Made by a program: the position numbers and the translations under genes. A stretch of 64,000 nt of DNA from Flavobacteriaceae bacterium GF1 (lineage in GTDB: Bacteria; Bacteroidota; Bacteroidia; Flavobacteriales; Flavobacteriaceae), in NCBI GenBank assembly GCA_009797885.1, contig WNKP01000003.1:372001-436000 (forward strand), read 5' to 3'. The notes beneath the pieces are model-generated. The model was not told where the DNA came from, made no database searches, and saw only the letters and a list, made by a program, of their open reading frames with translations. The first letter of the stretch is position 1. Each line of letters begins with the position of its first letter. Positions 14,515-55,227 of this stretch are shown piece after piece.

Positions 14515-16728
14515 ATGGATTTACCAAAAATGGGTTTGACGATGGATTTGCAGGGTGCTTTGAAGAAGTATTTTGGTTTCGACCAATTCAAAGGCCTCCA
14601 AGAAAACGTAATAGAAAATGTCCTGGACAATAGGGACACTTTTGTTATCATGCCGACCGGCGGTGGAAAATCACTTTGTTATCAATTACCGGCATTAATG
14701 AAGAAGGGCACCGCAATTGTGGTATCACCCCTTATTGCCTTAATGAAAAACCAAGTGGACGCCATTCGGGGTGTTTCGGAAGAACACGGGATTGCTCATG
14801 TTCTGAATTCCTCATTAACCAAAACCGAAGTAAGACAGGTAAAGGAAGATATTGCCAATGGGCTTACCAAATTGCTTTATGTGGCTCCGGAATCCCTGAC
14901 CAAGGAAGAATATGTGGACTTTTTGCAGCAGGTAACGTTGTCCTTTGTTGCCGTGGATGAAGCACATTGTATTTCGGAATGGGGACATGATTTTAGACCC
15001 GAATACCGCAACTTAAGGAGCATCATTTCCCGATTGGGCGATGCAATCCCGATTATTGGGTTAACCGCGACGGCCACGCCAAAGGTCCAGGAAGACATTA
15101 TCAAGAATCTGGGGATGAATGACGCAAAGGTCTTTAAGGCCTCGTTCAATAGGCCCAACCTGTTTTATGAAGTACGTCCCAAGACCAAAAATGTGGATGC
15201 GGACATCATCCGATTTGTAAAGCAAAATCAAAACAAATCCGGTATTGTGTATTGCCTGAGCCGTAAACGGGTGGAAGAACTGGCACAGGTACTTCAGGTA
15301 AATGGTATTAGTGCAGTCCCCTACCATGCTGGTTTTGATGCAAAGACCAGGGCCAAATACCAAGATATGTTCCTAATGGAGGATGTGGATGTTGTGGTGG
15401 CCACAATTGCCTTTGGTATGGGAATTGACAAACCGGACGTGCGCTTTGTTATCCATCATGATATCCCCAAGAGTATTGAAAGTTACTACCAGGAAACCGG
15501 TAGGGCCGGTCGTGATGGTGGTGAAGGACATTGCCTGGCATATTATTCCTATAAGGATGTGGAAAAGTTGGAGAAATTTATGTCGGGCAAACCTGTGGCA
15601 GAACAGGAAATAGGGCATGCCTTACTTCAAGAAATAGTGGCCTATGCAGAAACTTCCATGTCACGCAGAAAGTTCATCCTGCACTATTTTGGAGAAGACT
15701 TTGATGAAGTCAATGGAGAGGGAGCGGATATGGATGACAATACCAGGAACCCAAAACCCAAAGAAGAAGCCAAGGATAGTCTGGTGAAACTGTTAAGGGT
15801 GGTGCAGGATACCATGGAAAAATTCAAGACCAAGGAAATTGTTAAGACCTTGGTGGGGAAGACCAATGCGTTGATTTCTTCCCATAGAACGGAGGAAAAG
15901 GAAATTTTCGGTATTGGTGAAGATAAGGATGAGCAGTATTGGATGGCTTTGATCAGACAGGTCTTGGTGGCAGGTTATTTGCAAAAAGAGATTGAACAGT
16001 ACGGGGTATTGCATGTCACTGAAAAAGGGAAGGCATTTTTGGCGGACCCGGTTTCTTTCCTAATGACCAAGGACCATGAATACAAGAAGGAAGAAGATTC
16101 CAGTATCATTACCAATGGGAAATCCACAGGCAATGCAGCGGATGAGAAGCTTTTGAAGTTGCTTCGGGATTTACGAAAAAGGGAGGCCAGAAAAAATGAT
16201 GTGCCTCCTTTTGTGGTTTTTCAGGACCCTTCTTTGGATGATATGGCCCTCAAGTATCCCATTACCATGGAAGAATTGCTCAATGTACATGGTGTGGGGG
16301 AAGGAAAGGCAAAAAAATATGGGAAACCTTTTGTGGAACTTATCGCTACCTATGTGGAAGAGAACGATATTATTAGACCGGACGATTTAGTGGTAAAAAG
16401 CACAGGAGCAAATTCTGGTCTAAAACTGTATATCATTCAAAGCGTGGACAGAAAATTGCCCTTGGATGACATTGCCGCAGCCAAAGGCCTGGAACTTCCA
16501 GATTTGATCAAAGACATGGAACAAATCGTTTTTAGTGGGACTAAATTGAATCTTGGGTATTGGGTGGACGAAATCCTGGATGAAGACCAACAAGAGGAAA
16601 TCCATGAGTATTTTCTGGAGGCCGAAACCGATTCCATAACCGTTGCCATGGAGGAATTTGATGGGGACTATGAAGAGGAGGAACTCCGTATCTACCGATT
16701 AAAATTTATGAGCGAGGTGGCGAATTAA
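14515..16728 (+). CDS. recQ: ATP-dependent DNA helicase RecQ, without zinc ligands
   Basis: 3'-5' DNA helicase for recombination and replication repair. 737 residues: helicase motifs MPTGGGKSLCYQLPALM (I), VDEAHCISEWGHDFRPEYR (II plus aromatic loop), GLTATATPKVQEDI (III) and YYQETGRAGRDGGEG (VI), then a winged-helix region and an HRDC domain (about 540-610, LRKREARKNDVPPFVVFQDP and VHGVGEGKAKKYG). The segment that holds the four zinc-binding cysteines in E. coli RecQ reads YAETSMSRRKFILHYFGEDF then VNGEGADMDDN, with no cysteine at those places. The start at 14515 could equally be the Met codons at 14524 or 14542. Confidence 0.95.
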   Translation: MDLPKMGLTMDLQGALKKYFGFDQFKGLQENVIENVLDNRDTFVIMPTGGGKSLCYQLPALMKKGTAIVVSPLIALMKNQVDAIRGVSEEHGIAHVLNSSLTKTEVRQVKEDIANGLTKLLYVAPESLTKEEYVDFLQQVTLSFVAVDEAHCISEWGHDFRPEYRNLRSIISRLGDAIPIIGLTATATPKVQEDIIKNLGMNDAKVFKASFNRPNLFYEVRPKTKNVDADIIRFVKQNQNKSGIVYCLSRKRVEELAQVLQVNGISAVPYHAGFDAKTRAKYQDMFLMEDVDVVVATIAFGMGIDKPDVRFVIHHDIPKSIESYYQETGRAGRDGGEGHCLAYYSYKDVEKLEKFMSGKPVAEQEIGHALLQEIVAYAETSMSRRKFILHYFGEDFDEVNGEGADMDDNTRNPKPKEEAKDSLVKLLRVVQDTMEKFKTKEIVKTLVGKTNALISSHRTEEKEIFGIGEDKDEQYWMALIRQVLVAGYLQKEIEQYGVLHVTEKGKAFLADPVSFLMTKDHEYKKEEDSSIITNGKSTGNAADEKLLKLLRDLRKREARKNDVPPFVVFQDPSLDDMALKYPITMEELLNVHGVGEGKAKKYGKPFVELIATYVEENDIIRPDDLVVKSTGANSGLKLYIIQSVDRKLPLDDIAAAKGLELPDLIKDMEQIVFSGTKLNLGYWVDEILDEDQQEEIHEYFLEAETDSITVAMEEFDGDYEEEELRIYRLKFMSEVAN

Positions 16729-16769
16729 AGAAATACTCCTCCCAAATTCCATTGAGAGGAGTAATGTGA

Positions 16770-16904
16770 TTAAAGTTGAAAATAGTGCCAAAATAATTCT
16801 TGAGCCGCCCGGGTTAACTTGTATCCAAGGATGAACCCAGTTCCTTTGGAACCATCAGAGCCCCCATTCACTTTTTTTTGCATTGATACGCTTAATTCTT
16901 TCAT
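16770..16904 (-). CDS. Double-glycine leader peptide A, bacteriocin-like (44 aa)
   Basis: The ATG at 16904 opens a 44-codon frame ending with TAA at 16770. The first 15 residues, MKELSVSMQKKVNGG, fit a bacteriocin-type double-glycine leader: Leu and Ser at -12/-11, a hydrophobic residue at -4, Gly-Gly at -2/-1. The 29-residue core begins SDGSKG, contains GFILG (a GxxxG motif), is amphipathic and aromatic (LFWHYFQL at the end) and has no cysteine. It follows peptide B by 9 nt and is clearly its paralogue: equal core length, D2, K5, Y26 and the terminal QL in common. GxxxG pairs are typical of class IIb two-peptide bacteriocins. No export/peptidase gene is in the window, so secretion is inferred. 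Confidence 0.6.
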   Translation of the reverse strand: MKELSVSMQKKVNGGSDGSKGTGFILGYKLTRAAQELFWHYFQL

Positions 16905-16913
16905 TTTTCTAAT

Positions 16914-17057
16914 TTAAAGTTGATTATACACATATAGCCAAGCGGCTGTTACACCCATATTCCACCCTACTGCGAAATCGTAAACATCTTTACAAATGTC
17001 ACACCCCCCAGAAGTTTGGATGGAATCTTCAATTGAAAGTTGAACTAAATTTTTCAT
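16914..17057 (-). CDS. Double-glycine leader peptide B, CxxC-containing (47 aa)
   Basis: Starting at the ATG at 17057 gives an 18-residue leader MKNLVQLSIEDSIQTSGG with Leu-Ser at -12/-11 and Gly-Gly at the end, then a 29-residue core starting CDICKDVYDF and containing GWNMG (GxxxG), ending LYVYNQL. An in-frame ATG at 17066 would add three residues. Longer in-frame starts run back to 17147, but they would bury the leader. The two cysteines could form a disulfide or a modified ring. Genes B and A lie in tandem, with a 10-bp inverted repeat upstream (17139-17159). The function (antimicrobial, signal or other) is not shown by the sequence. Confidence 0.55.
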   Translation of the reverse strand: MKNLVQLSIEDSIQTSGGCDICKDVYDFAVGWNMGVTAAWLYVYNQL

Positions 17058-17138
17058 TAAATACATTTTGGTTAAACAAATAGTAATGATCAGATTTCCT
17101 TGCGCACAAATTCTAACCACAACAAATATGGCTGCTGT

Positions 17139-17159
17139 CACTCTCAAATTTTGAGAGTG
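17139..17159. promoter_or_regulatory. 10-bp perfect inverted repeat upstream of the double-glycine peptides
   Basis: CACTCTCAAA - t - TTTGAGAGTG, perfect arms of 10 bp around one base, 82 nt upstream of the peptide B start and just past the terminator of the neighbouring operon. It is too compact for a terminator hairpin and has no T run. It looks like a dimeric regulator site (inference). Confidence 0.45.
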
Positions 17160-17183
17160 GAATTATTTTAACATTTTGATTGG

Positions 17184-17213
17184 AAAAAAAAGCCCCAAAT
17201 ACGGGGCCTTTTT
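17184..17213 (-). terminator. Terminator after the CCC-motif operon
   Basis: On the minus strand GGCCCCGTATTTGGGGC is followed by eight T residues, directly after the stop codon of the 103-residue membrane protein. It isolates the double-glycine peptide genes as their own transcription unit. Confidence 0.85.
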
Positions 17214-17524
17214 TAAAAATTTTGGGAAAACTCCCCCGAACTGATCAGGGCGATGATAAATCCAAAATACAATATGGATAGAACAAGCATGATCAGTGAT
17301 AGTGCCAATCCTATATAAGAAAGTATCCTCCCGGTCTTCACATTACTGATATCACTGTACAATTCGGGATTCTCATTATACAGTGCTTCGGCACTTTTGG
17401 CTTTTACCAGTCCAATAATGCTGAAAATGATGGCAAAGGGCCCACAACAGATGATTGAACCCACAATGGAAAAAATTCCCATGGTCAATACGGTGCTGGC
17501 GCCGGGTAAGGTTTGTTGACTCAT
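17213..17524 (-). CDS. CCC-motif-like small membrane protein (103 aa)
   Basis: Two-to-three-span protein with GSIICCGPFAIIFSIIGLV, then the soluble motif AEALYNENPELYSDISNVKTG, then a C-terminal pair of hydrophobic helices. It is a paralogue of the next gene upstream: both carry the E-x-LY-x-ENP-x-LY-x3-S-x-[IV]KTG block. Such CCC-motif proteins occur in Bacteroidota operons with DUF2752 and TM2/DUF4190-like proteins, without known function. It ends the operon, 12 nt after its paralogue. Confidence 0.8.
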   Translation of the reverse strand: MSQQTLPGASTVLTMGIFSIVGSIICCGPFAIIFSIIGLVKAKSAEALYNENPELYSDISNVKTGRILSYIGLALSLIMLVLSILYFGFIIALISSGEFSQNF

Positions 17525-51466: not shown

Positions 51467-51494
51467 AGACTACTAATAGACATACGTTTTTCAT
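51393..51494 (-). pseudogene. Relic 5' end of a further array gene
   Basis: The ATG at 51494 overlaps the stop of the last array gene by 4 nt and encodes MKNVCLLV, identical to the first eight residues of the array gene at 53211 and preceded by the same sequence. The match then breaks off and the frame (33 codons in all) runs into the duplicated control region. It marks the right-hand recombination point of the RHS insertion. Confidence 0.6.
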
Positions 51495-52372
51495 GGCTCA
51501 TTTGCATTTAATGGATTTTCTAATTTTTTTAATCGTTTTTCTTGATGGTGGACCAGATTGTATAAAGCTGCTATTTGCCCATCCTTTAGAAGTAGTTTCT
51601 TTTCCTGTAATAAGATGTAAAGGGTCAACTCCTCAATTTTTTCCAGGAGTTTCATATTCATTTCGCCCAATTGAATACCATTGGCCTCCAGTTCTTTGGC
51701 CGAGGGAATATTGGGCAAATGCCCGTGTTCTTGGATGTAGTTTTGGACTTCTTCCAAGGATTTAAGGTCATACCCTTCCTTAAAGACATAATCGGGAGCG
51801 GGAACGGTAAGGTCTACCTGGACCTCTTCGGCATGGATATCCCCTTTTACGGCAAGTTTGGCATCTGGAGCTGTGGTGCCGATGCCCACATTGCCAAACT
51901 TGTTTATGGTCATATGGGTAATGGGATAGCCAATTATGGATGGCGAGGTTCCCAAACGAAGATTTCCCCTAACGCCATCAAAACGTACTTCGGCAGAATA
52001 TTTATCGGGGTCTAAATCAGATGTGCCGCTAGGTTCATAAGAATGGTAAAAATACAATATGGCGTGACCTCCTTGATGAAACGCCATGGCGTTACCAATC
52101 TGTAACTTATCCTGTGGGGAGGTTGTTCCAATGCCAATATTACCGCCGGATTTCACGGTCAACCATTCTTTGGTGGTAGTGGCATCTTCAAACAGACCCC
52201 AGCGATCGCCCATAACCATACCACTTGCCCAAACACCGTTGGTTGAATTGCTTTGAAATAAGCTGATATTGTTGGGGGAATTTAAAACCAACTTTCGGTA
52301 GTTCTCGGTCAAATCTTGGGCCGTCACTATAGTGGAAAGCAAAAGTGACAGCATAAGGGAAGGTGTTTTCAT
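51491..52372 (-). CDS. Secreted protein with shared array C-terminal domain, copy 4
   Basis: 293 residues. Signal peptide (about 1-18), a variable N-terminal domain with two VGIGTT-type strand repeats (GNIGIGTTSPQDKLQIG, GNVGIGTTAPDAKLAVKG), then the array's common C-terminal domain of about 115 residues (DYVFKEGYDLKSLEEVQNYI, GHLPNIPSAKELEANG, LLEKIEELTLYILLQEKKLL), ending in a coiled coil. The VGIGT plus 'hLPNIPSA' domain is widespread in Bacteroidota cell-surface and phage-tail-like proteins, with no proven function. It overlaps the upstream copy by 4 nt. Confidence 0.8.
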   Translation of the reverse strand: MKTPSLMLSLLLSTIVTAQDLTENYRKLVLNSPNNISLFQSNSTNGVWASGMVMGDRWGLFEDATTTKEWLTVKSGGNIGIGTTSPQDKLQIGNAMAFHQGGHAILYFYHSYEPSGTSDLDPDKYSAEVRFDGVRGNLRLGTSPSIIGYPITHMTINKFGNVGIGTTAPDAKLAVKGDIHAEEVQVDLTVPAPDYVFKEGYDLKSLEEVQNYIQEHGHLPNIPSAKELEANGIQLGEMNMKLLEKIEELTLYILLQEKKLLLKDGQIAALYNLVHHQEKRLKKLENPLNANEP

Positions 52373-53211
52373 AGTTTTGTCTTTAAGATTGATTCCAGTT
52401 TTTCGAATTTTCCCTCATATTCCCTATTCCTGTTTTCCAACTCAATTACATATAGGGTCAGTTCTTCAATCTTCTCCAAAAGTTTCATATTCATTTCGCC
52501 CAGTTCAATGCCATTGGCCTTCAATTCTTTGGCCGAGGGGATATTGGGCAAATGCCCGTGTTTTTTGATATGGTTTTGGACTTCTTCCAGGGATTTGAGG
52601 TCATACCCTTCCTTAAAGACATAATCCGGGGCGGGAACGGCAAGATCTACTTTTACCTCTTCCGTATGGATACGGCCCTTTACGGTAAGCTTGGCATCTG
52701 GGGAAGTAGTGCCTATGCCTACTTTGCCATTATAGGCCAGATAGAGATCATTTTCCCCATAATTGATCCGTCCAAATTTTGCAGTTTCAATAACGGCATC
52801 CCCACCATTGGGCAGTATACCATCAAGAATAGCACCCCCTGTCCAAGCCGACTGATCTAAAAACACCATTAGTTGGGGAATTGCCGCGGTAAAATTGACT
52901 TCCAAATGGGCAGTTACGCCATCGGAGCTGATACGGGCTTCTGACCAATAGCCTCCATTACTGAGGGAGATTAGATTAAGGCCTCCATAGGAAGACCATC
53001 CCTTAAACCAAGAAATCTTGGCCACCCATGGTTGAGAAGCCCCCCCTTGGGTCATCAGCACAACTTCGTTATACCCCCTGCCATAGGCACCATCCAATCG
53101 TGCCACCCGTTTCCATCCTGGTGCATCAACCTCTACTGTTTTGTTGCTATAATGTTGAGGGAAAATACATTGGAACATAAGATATGCTACCAATAGACAT
53201 ACGTTTTTCAT
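52369..53211 (-). CDS. Secreted protein with shared array C-terminal domain, copy 3
   Basis: 280 residues, starting MKNVCLLVAYLMFQCIFPQ (signal peptide). The N-terminal 130 residues are aromatic-rich (KISWFKGWSSYGGLNLISLS) and unrelated to the other copies. A single GKVGIGTTSPDAKLTVKG strand leads into the common C-terminal domain (VDLAVPAPDYVFKEGYDLKS, KKHGHLPNIPSAKELKANG). It lacks the KRLKKLE tail of copies 2 and 4. The ATGA overlap with copy 2 indicates translational coupling. Probably a tip-variable surface or fibre protein (inference). Confidence 0.8.
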   Translation of the reverse strand: MKNVCLLVAYLMFQCIFPQHYSNKTVEVDAPGWKRVARLDGAYGRGYNEVVLMTQGGASQPWVAKISWFKGWSSYGGLNLISLSNGGYWSEARISSDGVTAHLEVNFTAAIPQLMVFLDQSAWTGGAILDGILPNGGDAVIETAKFGRINYGENDLYLAYNGKVGIGTTSPDAKLTVKGRIHTEEVKVDLAVPAPDYVFKEGYDLKSLEEVQNHIKKHGHLPNIPSAKELKANGIELGEMNMKLLEKIEELTLYVIELENRNREYEGKFEKLESILKTKL

Positions 53212-54116
53212 GGCTCATTTGCTTTTAAGAGGTTCTCTAATTTTTTTAATCGTTTTTCTTGATGGTGGACCAAGCTGTACAAAGCTGCTATTTCCCCATC
53301 CTTTAGAAGTAGCTTATCTTCCTGTGCCAAGATGTAAAGGGTCAACTCCTCGATTTTCTCCAAGAGTTTCATATCCATTTCTCCCAGTTCAATGCCGTTG
53401 GCTTCCATTTCTTTGGCAGAGGGAATATTGGGCAAATGCCCGTTTTCTTGAATGTAGTTCTGGACTTCTTCCAGGGATTTGAGGTCATACCCTTCCTTAA
53501 AGACATAATCCGGTGCGGGAACGGCAAGATCCACCTGAATCTCTTCGGCGTGGATGTTCCCTTTTACAGTAAGTTTGGCGTCCGGGGCAGTAGTGCCGAT
53601 GCCCACTTTTCCCGAATGTAAGATCCTGAACAGACTAATGTTTCCCACACTTTGGATATCAAGCCCGTTATAAGCCCCTTCGCCCGATCCCCCGACTCGG
53701 ATACGGGCAGTGTTATTGTACCAGGAGAGGTTCACATTTGCATCATCATTTGTTGGATTTGGGGTAATTAAGTCCCCTTTTAAATCCACCTGGCCGTTCT
53801 CATTGGCAAGCACTACCTTTCTCCAAGGTTTCCAGATAGTTTCATTTGGATCCCAATACCTGAAGATCAAATCGCCATAAATGGATTGATAACCGCTGAC
53901 TCCGATTTCAAAGTTTCGACAGCAGCTTCCATCGGAAACGGTCAGTTTGGTCCCATATGGGTAGGTCCAATTGAAAGTGTTGGTACTACCTGGTCCCCTT
54001 TGATAACTGATTCCGGAGGAAATGTCCTGAACAGGGGCTCCCTCATCATAAGTGGTCTGTGCTGCTGTGGATGTGGTCCAGATGAATAAAACCGAAAGTA
54101 TAACCGCTCTTTTCAT
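53208..54116 (-). CDS. Secreted protein with shared array C-terminal domain, copy 2
   Basis: 302 residues. Signal peptide (about 1-19, TSTAAQ), a distinct N-terminal domain containing a CC pair (SDGSCCRNFEIGVSGYQSIY) and WNETI-like aromatic strands, then GKVGIGTTAPDAKLTVKG and the common C-terminal domain, ending HHQEKRLKKLENLLKANEP, almost identical to the end of copy 4. Its 3' end and the next start reproduce the junction seen at 51491-51494, which shows how the array grew by unit duplication. It follows copy 1 by 1 nt. Confidence 0.8.
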   Translation of the reverse strand: MKRAVILSVLFIWTTSTAAQTTYDEGAPVQDISSGISYQRGPGSTNTFNWTYPYGTKLTVSDGSCCRNFEIGVSGYQSIYGDLIFRYWDPNETIWKPWRKVVLANENGQVDLKGDLITPNPTNDDANVNLSWYNNTARIRVGGSGEGAYNGLDIQSVGNISLFRILHSGKVGIGTTAPDAKLTVKGNIHAEEIQVDLAVPAPDYVFKEGYDLKSLEEVQNYIQENGHLPNIPSAKEMEANGIELGEMDMKLLEKIEELTLYILAQEDKLLLKDGEIAALYSLVHHQEKRLKKLENLLKANEP

Positions 54117-54117
54117 A

Positions 54118-55227
54118 TTATTCCTTAGTAAGAAGTTCTAGAATGATTGTATTTTGCTTTTGGAGGCGTTCTATTATTCGTTCCTGGGCAATAAGGTATA
54201 AGGTGAGTTCCTCAATTTTTTCCAAGAGTTTCATGTCCATTTCTCCCAGTTGAATACCATTGGCCTCCAGTTCTTTGGCTGAGGGGATATTGGGCAAATG
54301 CCCGTGTTTTTGAATGTAGTTTTGGACTTCTTCCAGGGATTTGAGTTCATACCCCTCCTTAAAGACATAATCCGGGGCGGGAACGGCAAGATCTACCTTG
54401 ATCTCTTCGGCGTGGATGTTCCCTTTTACAGTAAGTTTGGCGTCCGGGGCAGTAGTGCCGATGCCCACACGGCCATTTTGGTGGATTCCGATAAAACCAC
54501 TTGCCGATTTTAGTAGTAGGCCATAGTATCCCGCTACTTGCACGGCACCTCTATCATGGGTATTGGAGAGGTCCATAAAATCGCTTCTCCCCAATCCATA
54601 CCAAGGGCTGGCATTGGTAAGGTCCGTAATGGTTGACAAGGAAAACGTTGTCGCCCGAATACCATTGCCCTCCACATGTAATTGGGCCAATGGGGTATAG
54701 GTTCCTATCCCCACATTGCCACCGAGAAACAGTATTTCATTCGTCCCGTTCTCTACCTGGATTCGAAACTCACTTAGGGAAGTACTGAGTCCCATATAGG
54801 CTTTTCTGGTACCATTGCTCGATTTCCAATTGGTATAGAGCCAACTGTCATCACTGGTCTGGAACGTTTGTATGGCGTCGGTATCACTCGCAATATGGAG
54901 GGGGGACAATGGACTGCTGTACCCAATGCCCACATGTCCCGTCTCGTGGTCGATCCGCATGCGTTCGTTACCCTCCGTCTTGAACAAAAGGTCGTTGTTG
55001 TAGGAGGAAAAGGCATTTGTGGTGGTATAGACGTCCTTATTAAAAATAATATTGGGCCTATCCGTATAGATATGACCATGGGACGAATTAAAAGGTCCTA
55101 TTTCAATGGTTCCGTGATTGGTGGTAAAGGTATGTTTGGTAGATCCGTTGTAGGTGGCCTGTGCGCTTACCAAAAAAGACAAAAGCAAAGCGCCAATGGG
55201 CAGCATGGCCCGGTAGGTTGTTTTCAT
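54118..55227 (-). CDS. Secreted protein with shared array C-terminal domain, copy 1
   Basis: 369 residues, the longest and first copy. Starts MKTTYRAMLPIGALLLSFLV (signal peptide to SAQ). The N-terminal half has three VGIG strands (GHVGIGYSSPLSPLHIAS, GNVGIGTYTPLAQLHVEG, GRVGIGTTAPDAKLTVKG), and the common C-terminal domain follows. The C-terminus differs from the other copies (ERLQKQNTIILELLTKE). It is read from the control region at 55211-55436. No T9SS C-terminal signal is seen, so the final location (periplasm, surface or medium) is open. Confidence 0.8.
   Translation of the reverse strand: MKTTYRAMLPIGALLLSFLVSAQATYNGSTKHTFTTNHGTIEIGPFNSSHGHIYTDRPNIIFNKDVYTTTNAFSSYNNDLLFKTEGNERMRIDHETGHVGIGYSSPLSPLHIASDTDAIQTFQTSDDSWLYTNWKSSNGTRKAYMGLSTSLSEFRIQVENGTNEILFLGGNVGIGTYTPLAQLHVEGNGIRATTFSLSTITDLTNASPWYGLGRSDFMDLSNTHDRGAVQVAGYYGLLLKSASGFIGIHQNGRVGIGTTAPDAKLTVKGNIHAEEIKVDLAVPAPDYVFKEGYELKSLEEVQNYIQKHGHLPNIPSAKELEANGIQLGEMDMKLLEKIEELTLYLIAQERIIERLQKQNTIILELLTKE

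Follow-up and report, generated by a model that had tools for sequence, protein, structure and literature searches.

Class IIb two-peptide bacteriocins are recognized by the adjacency of their genes on one operon, by GxxxG motifs, by the joint action of the two peptides, and by a single immunity protein per pair (PMC2806384). Bacteroidetocins are described as peptides of ~35 to 50 amino acids with at least two and often four cysteines, whose genes are linked to those for a transmembrane protein, an exporter and, in most cases, a thiol oxidoreductase (PMC6671954). A third report, on modified peptides (RiPPs) of the order Bacteroidales, cites them as the class II group reported there, states that few unmodified small bacteriocins are known from this order, and mentions C39 exporters with GG-motif precursors (PMC10352776). 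Our own literature search, which covered titles and the starts of abstracts and had most subscription journals outside its range, returned nothing on tandem double-glycine peptides of Flavobacteriaceae. Double-glycine leaders serve both bacteriocins and pheromones.

Here we describe a tandem pair of short genes in a 64,000-nucleotide stretch of contig WNKP01000003.1 of Flavobacteriaceae bacterium GF1 (the window). The pair resembles class IIb systems such as lactococcin G, plantaricin E/F, and the pyogenecins in consisting of two adjacent short double-glycine genes; one GxxxG motif is present in each, but that of the second gene does not exceed chance. The genes lie 9 nt apart on the same strand, and a hairpin follows the second. 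Whereas class IIb bacteriocins belong to Gram-positive bacteria, however, the host here is Gram negative, no immunity gene was seen beside the pair, and the peptides match no NCBIfam or Pfam family. Membership of the pair in class IIb is unproven on these comparisons. With the bacteroidetocins (PMC6671954), the pair shares a Bacteroidota host, a leader of ~15 amino acids cut after Gly-Gly (a cleavage that is predicted for our pair), and a C39-type exporter, but its cores are only 29 amino acids long, cysteines occur in one peptide only, and the genes linked to bacteroidetocins were not seen beside it.

Two predicted double-glycine precursors

The first gene of the pair (positions 16914..17057, minus strand) starts at an ATG and encodes 47 amino acids, comprising a predicted 18-residue double-glycine leader, MKNLVQLSIEDSIQTSGG, and the core CDICKDVYDFAVGWNMGVTAAWLYVYNQL; an alternative in-frame ATG upstream, at 17066, would add 3 residues. 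The second gene (16770..16904, minus strand) also starts at an ATG and encodes 44 amino acids, with a 15-residue double-glycine leader, MKELSVSMQKKVNGG, and the core SDGSKGTGFILGYKLTRAAQELFWHYFQL. Both leaders have the characteristics of C39/PCAT substrates, namely, a Gly-Gly end, Leu-Ser at positions -12/-11, and hydrophobic positions, although the leader of the first gene carries Thr at -4 instead of a large hydrophobic residue. Both cores are 29 residues long, have D2, K5, Y26, and a terminal QL in common, and contain one GxxxG motif each (GWNMG and GFILG). They differ in that the first core has C1 and C4, which form an N-terminal CxxC, where the second has S1 and S4, and in their charge (K+R minus D+E), which is -2 for the first and +1 for the second. 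The helical moment of the first core reached 0.27 to 0.36 in the first five 18-residue segments only and was at most 0.14 in the rest. The coordinates, frames, leaders with their Leu-Ser at -12/-11, core lengths, common residues, and GxxxG motifs are all as given in a preliminary description made from the sequence alone.

A double-glycine ORF filter, defined after the finding had been seen, was fitted by only these two ORFs in the whole window. When the 462-bp stretch was dinucleotide shuffled 20,000 times, two such ORFs never arose, and at least one arose in 27 cases; 60 shuffled windows produced 21 single passes of the filter but no adjacent pairs. The pair exceeds chance expectation. The preliminary description had also called the two peptides paralogous, a claim that is not supported for the cores: their ungapped identity of 5/29 was reached by 1.4% of shuffles and their local alignment score by 29%, and their similarity lies within chance. 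The leader layout that the two predicted genes have in common is clear. GxxxG arose in 6.5% of composition-shuffled versions of the first core and in 34% of those of the second, and the motif is weak evidence for class IIb.

Searches with the peptides themselves returned no convincing homologue of either core, judging by the sequences in 10 genus relatives and 397 family genomes. Neither peptide had a match in any of the 10 genus relatives. The first peptide matched 38 of the 397 family genomes at an E value of ≤1, its own genome included; the best match outside its own genome had an E value of 0.007 and fell in a frame with four stops. We considered as possible homologues the 29 loci that were read in frame, out of 39 places matched outside its own genome, and rejected them as chance-like, since the frames either were interrupted or belonged to larger proteins, of which four are presumably superoxide-dismutase-like; a double-glycine leader was found in the matching frame of none of the 29. 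At one of these loci (L031), a loose leader filter lists two ORFs that do not coincide with the match, and one of the two is leader-like with a Gly-Ser end. The second peptide had a single outside match at an E value of ≤0.1 in the same sample of 397 (E = 0.03), inside a 260-aa frame, and a search of public genome and viral contigs with the first peptide found no relative at an E value of ≤1e-3.

An apparent insertion beside a recQ-like gene

The pair sits in an apparent insertion of ~455 bp (16729..17186, with a right edge that is uncertain by a few A residues), between the stop codon of what we take, from its sequence, to be a recQ-like helicase gene (14515..16728, plus strand) and the old terminator between recQ and its neighbor. 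This terminator-like hairpin (17192..17207) precedes a gene for a small membrane protein of Pfam family MpPF26 (17213..17524, minus strand), and the three nearest genes on the right belong by Pfam to MpPF26, MpPF26, and DUF2752. The G+C content is 35% for positions 16729 to 17190, versus 43% for the window. No third gene was recognized within the insert and no exporter beside the pair in the ORF listing and the Pfam searches of the three neighbors, and no terminal repeats that would mark a mobile element were noticed by eye at the insert.

The genus includes 10 other genomes, in which we compared the corresponding site. The neighbor gene was recovered in nine of them, G005 being the exception, and the recQ-like gene was on the same locus in all nine. 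In the close relatives G004 and G006, with respective identities of 95% and 94% for the MpPF26 neighbor and of 100% and 99% for the last 115 residues of RecQ, the site is empty: the recQ stop is directly followed by the counterpart of the hairpin that lies ~455 bp further on in our genome. Four others (G007, G009, G002, and G003) have a hairpin, identified by eye, and the next gene within ~120 bp of the recQ stop, while different cluster sequence comes after recQ in the remaining three (G001, G008, and G010). The pair was absent from the recQ site in all nine, with the whole stretch missing, and the flanking genes occur without it. The simplest reading of this pattern is that this lineage gained the pair; that the relatives lost it is less likely. 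The preliminary description had stated that its interpretation would fail if the two frames were not conserved in close relatives or were often broken by stops or frameshifts. On the first count the result formally goes against it, as neither peptide occurs in the 10 genus relatives, while on the second no broken frames were seen, because the whole stretch is absent from the nine relatives in which the place was recovered.

Within the insert, a terminator-like hairpin with a 12-bp stem and a T-rich tail (16734..16763, minus strand) begins 6 bases past the second gene; it folds at -18.5 kcal/mol, and none of 200 shuffles was as stable. Upstream of the pair is a perfect palindrome with 10-bp arms and a 1-nt center (17139..17159), possibly an operator or an upstream hairpin. 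With the palindrome upstream and the terminator-like hairpin downstream, the pair is, as far as sequence can indicate, a compact unit. We also considered whether the palindrome might be an operator common to double-glycine operons and ruled this out, since it is present as a single copy in its own genome when up to 2 mismatches are allowed; at the same tolerance, it was not found in 20 relatives. The -7 promoter motif of flavobacteria is TAnnTTTG. No exact copy of it was found upstream of the pair, where two variants with one extra base are present. Other parts of our genome match the insert at six places over 17 to 33 bases, and an ORF scan of these six loci recognized no double-glycine pair.

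C39 exporters and tandem peptide sets in the genus and family

The preliminary description had proposed looking for a C39 ABC transporter elsewhere in the genome, and such a search was positive. The Pfam C39 peptidase domain matches at five places, three of them in frames of 718 to 734 aa (contigs 44, 4, and 22), none of which is linked to the window pair. The contig 44 frame, for which ABC domains were checked, is a C39-ABC exporter by Pfam; it is accompanied by an HlyD gene, also assigned by Pfam, and adjoins another tandem double-glycine pair, of 53 and 52 aa. Following this second pair is a small hydrophobic ORF (L054, 5381-5545, minus strand) whose C terminus, IGKDSFLMHPESLISF, resembles that of the second peptide of this contig 44 pair, LGKDSYELHPESLI; judging from its sequence and position, it is possibly a self-protection candidate, either an immunity peptide or a peptide-derived gene. 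Double-glycine precursors with cysteine-bearing cores also occur near C39-type frames on contigs 4 and 62 of the same genome (L057, 6390-6533, and L055, 7516-7704, both on the minus strand).

C39 matches were present in 9 of the 11 genus genomes. Exporters 78 to 86% identical to that of contig 44 were found in G005, G007, and G009, each adjoining a tandem double-glycine pair, and G002 carries a tandem triple of such peptides. Beside the G009 pair and the G002 triple lies a CPBP-type membrane protein (Pfam E = 8.7e-19 and 1.5e-7, respectively), in both cases presumably Rce1-like, while the similarly placed protein in G007 matched no Pfam family at an E value of ≤0.01. G004 has the contig 44 pair with identical protein sequence, but the exporter and HlyD genes are missing there; its C39 matches lie elsewhere, one of them in a 734-aa frame. 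The G004 case thus shows that such a pair may occur with no exporter gene linked to it. At this locus (L084, G004:C1:5052000-5066000), other small ORFs, including a leader-like ORF of 57 aa, take the place of the exporter and HlyD genes between 4700 and 6600.

A profile built from 13 such peptides, two of them those of the window, matched 31 of the 397 family genomes at an E value of ≤0.01. Of the matching genomes, 29 lie outside the genus; we picked 16 loci from these, favoring better or paired matches, and at all 16 a loose filter identified at least two double-glycine ORFs in tandem. A protein 58 to 83% identical to the contig 44 exporter was encoded at 11 of the 16, and a CPBP-type match was obtained at 6 of the 16 with three queries, one of which was the G007 protein that lacks a Pfam match. 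At the other five loci no such exporter was found within the 12 to 16 kb fetched, although the L155 pair is less than 3 kb from a contig end. Both cores of the L155 and L156 pair, which has no exporter nearby, look conserved by eye between the two genomes. These observations support the view that tandem double-glycine sets, whether linked to an exporter or not, constitute a real, variable kind. In one 15-kb exporter locus (L168, G060:C2:63000-78000), the loose leader filter lists ten ORFs between 7088 and 12589, two of which are near-duplicate precursors.

The window pair resembles these tandem loci (contig 44, L085-L087, L090, and L153-L168) in leader type, tandem layout, and short glycine-bearing cores, but an exporter, HlyD, or CPBP-type gene is not linked to it, and the similarity of its cores to theirs does not exceed chance. 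When a profile was made from the other 11 double-glycine peptides, the first window peptide scored 13.4 bits against it and the second 8.3 bits, values that were reached by 0 and 2, respectively, of 2,000 whole-sequence shuffles. When the leader was kept and the core shuffled, 816 of 2,000 and 875 of 2,000 controls scored as high. Because core-shuffled controls score as high, the likeness of the pair to the other sets resides in the leader, and we dropped the profile as support from the cores. By leader and layout, then, the pair fits the tandem double-glycine sets, a fit that is not demonstrable by core.

Possible roles of the pair

We consider it very probable that the two ORFs are real double-glycine precursors, and we read them as orphan members of the variable tandem double-glycine arrangement of the Flavobacteriaceae. 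A secreted double-glycine pair, as the preliminary description proposed, is still the best reading. The pair would have been gained as a compact cassette, and its two genes are probably transcribed together. Their leaders would be recognized by a C39-peptidase ABC exporter whose gene lies elsewhere in the genome, most likely the contig 44 exporter, which is accompanied by HlyD and a tandem pair of its own. Cleavage after Gly-Gly would then release two 29-residue peptides, which might, and here we are less sure, act together on the membranes of competing Bacteroidota. The N-terminal CxxC of the acidic peptide may close a small disulfide, the other peptide would be mildly basic and amphipathic, and the two could work much as two-peptide bacteriocins do; self-protection would then be either unnecessary or encoded elsewhere. 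We estimate a probability of roughly 0.5 for this whole chain, which runs from production of the pair, through its export and trimming in trans by a C39 exporter, to bacteriocin-like action of the two peptides together. Points against it are the likeness to the other sets in the leader alone, the lack of a convincing core homologue in the genomes searched, of an exporter or third small gene beside the pair, and of an exact promoter motif, and the low helical moment over most of the first core.

Some of the same features would suit a secreted signal, that is, a set of C39-exported pheromones or cues that act within the species and are not toxins: the cores are short, at 29 aa, and were found only in their own genome, the insert holds no third gene, and the palindrome upstream is a possible operator. 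No sensor kinase or receptor was recognized among the neighboring ORFs, however (by eye, with three neighbors scanned with Pfam), and the pairs and triples of glycine-bearing peptides that accompany CPBP-type proteins in some relatives suit bacteriocins better, and we regard a signal as unlikely. It is rather unlikely that the pair is instead a decaying or silent orphan of a once fuller bacteriocin locus, no longer made after the loss of its exporter, immunity gene, and promoter. Such a remnant would match the lack of linked partner genes, of an exact promoter motif, and of any match in the 10 genus relatives, but the two frames and their leaders, the tight spacing of 9 nt, and the hairpin are all intact, and exporter frames with a C39 domain exist elsewhere in the genome.

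Modification before export, by an enzyme encoded elsewhere, would make the two ORFs RiPP precursors. The CxxC and SxxS at the core N termini could be modified, and of the cysteine-cored double-glycine precursors near C39-type frames on contigs 4 and 62, one (L057, 6390-6533) falls just under the cutoff of the rSAM-modified family TIGR04149 (22.1 versus 25 bits). Nevertheless, ORF lists inspected by eye revealed no modifying enzyme at the pair or at the contig 44, G005, G007, and G009 loci, and the pair itself matches neither NCBIfam nor Pfam families, which leaves this explanation quite improbable. That the two are chance ORFs in an intergenic insertion would agree with the lack of a convincing core homologue, through which conservation gives no test of coding, but it is very hard to reconcile with the recurrence of two such ORFs in none of the 20,000 shuffles and with an operon-like layout that ends in a hairpin.

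Genome mining that takes exporters as its starting point would miss orphan pairs if these rely on a resident C39 exporter in trans. The apparent recent insertion beside recQ also provides a clean natural comparison of presence and absence. More speculatively, and in our view doubtfully, the double-glycine bacteriocins of two or three peptides in the Flavobacteriaceae might form a hypervariable class whose C39 exporter is conserved and some of whose members have CPBP-type self-protection, and stand-alone peptide-only cassettes of ~455 bp, like that of the window, might hop between genomes, plug into the resident exporter, and swap toxin specificity.

Elsewhere in the window, positions 51491-55227 on the minus strand contain a row of four long ORFs, each of which has a signal-peptide-like start. 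Three ORFs on the opposite strand there, at 51719, 52552, and 54298, share similar starts, which suggests tandem duplication of the genes.
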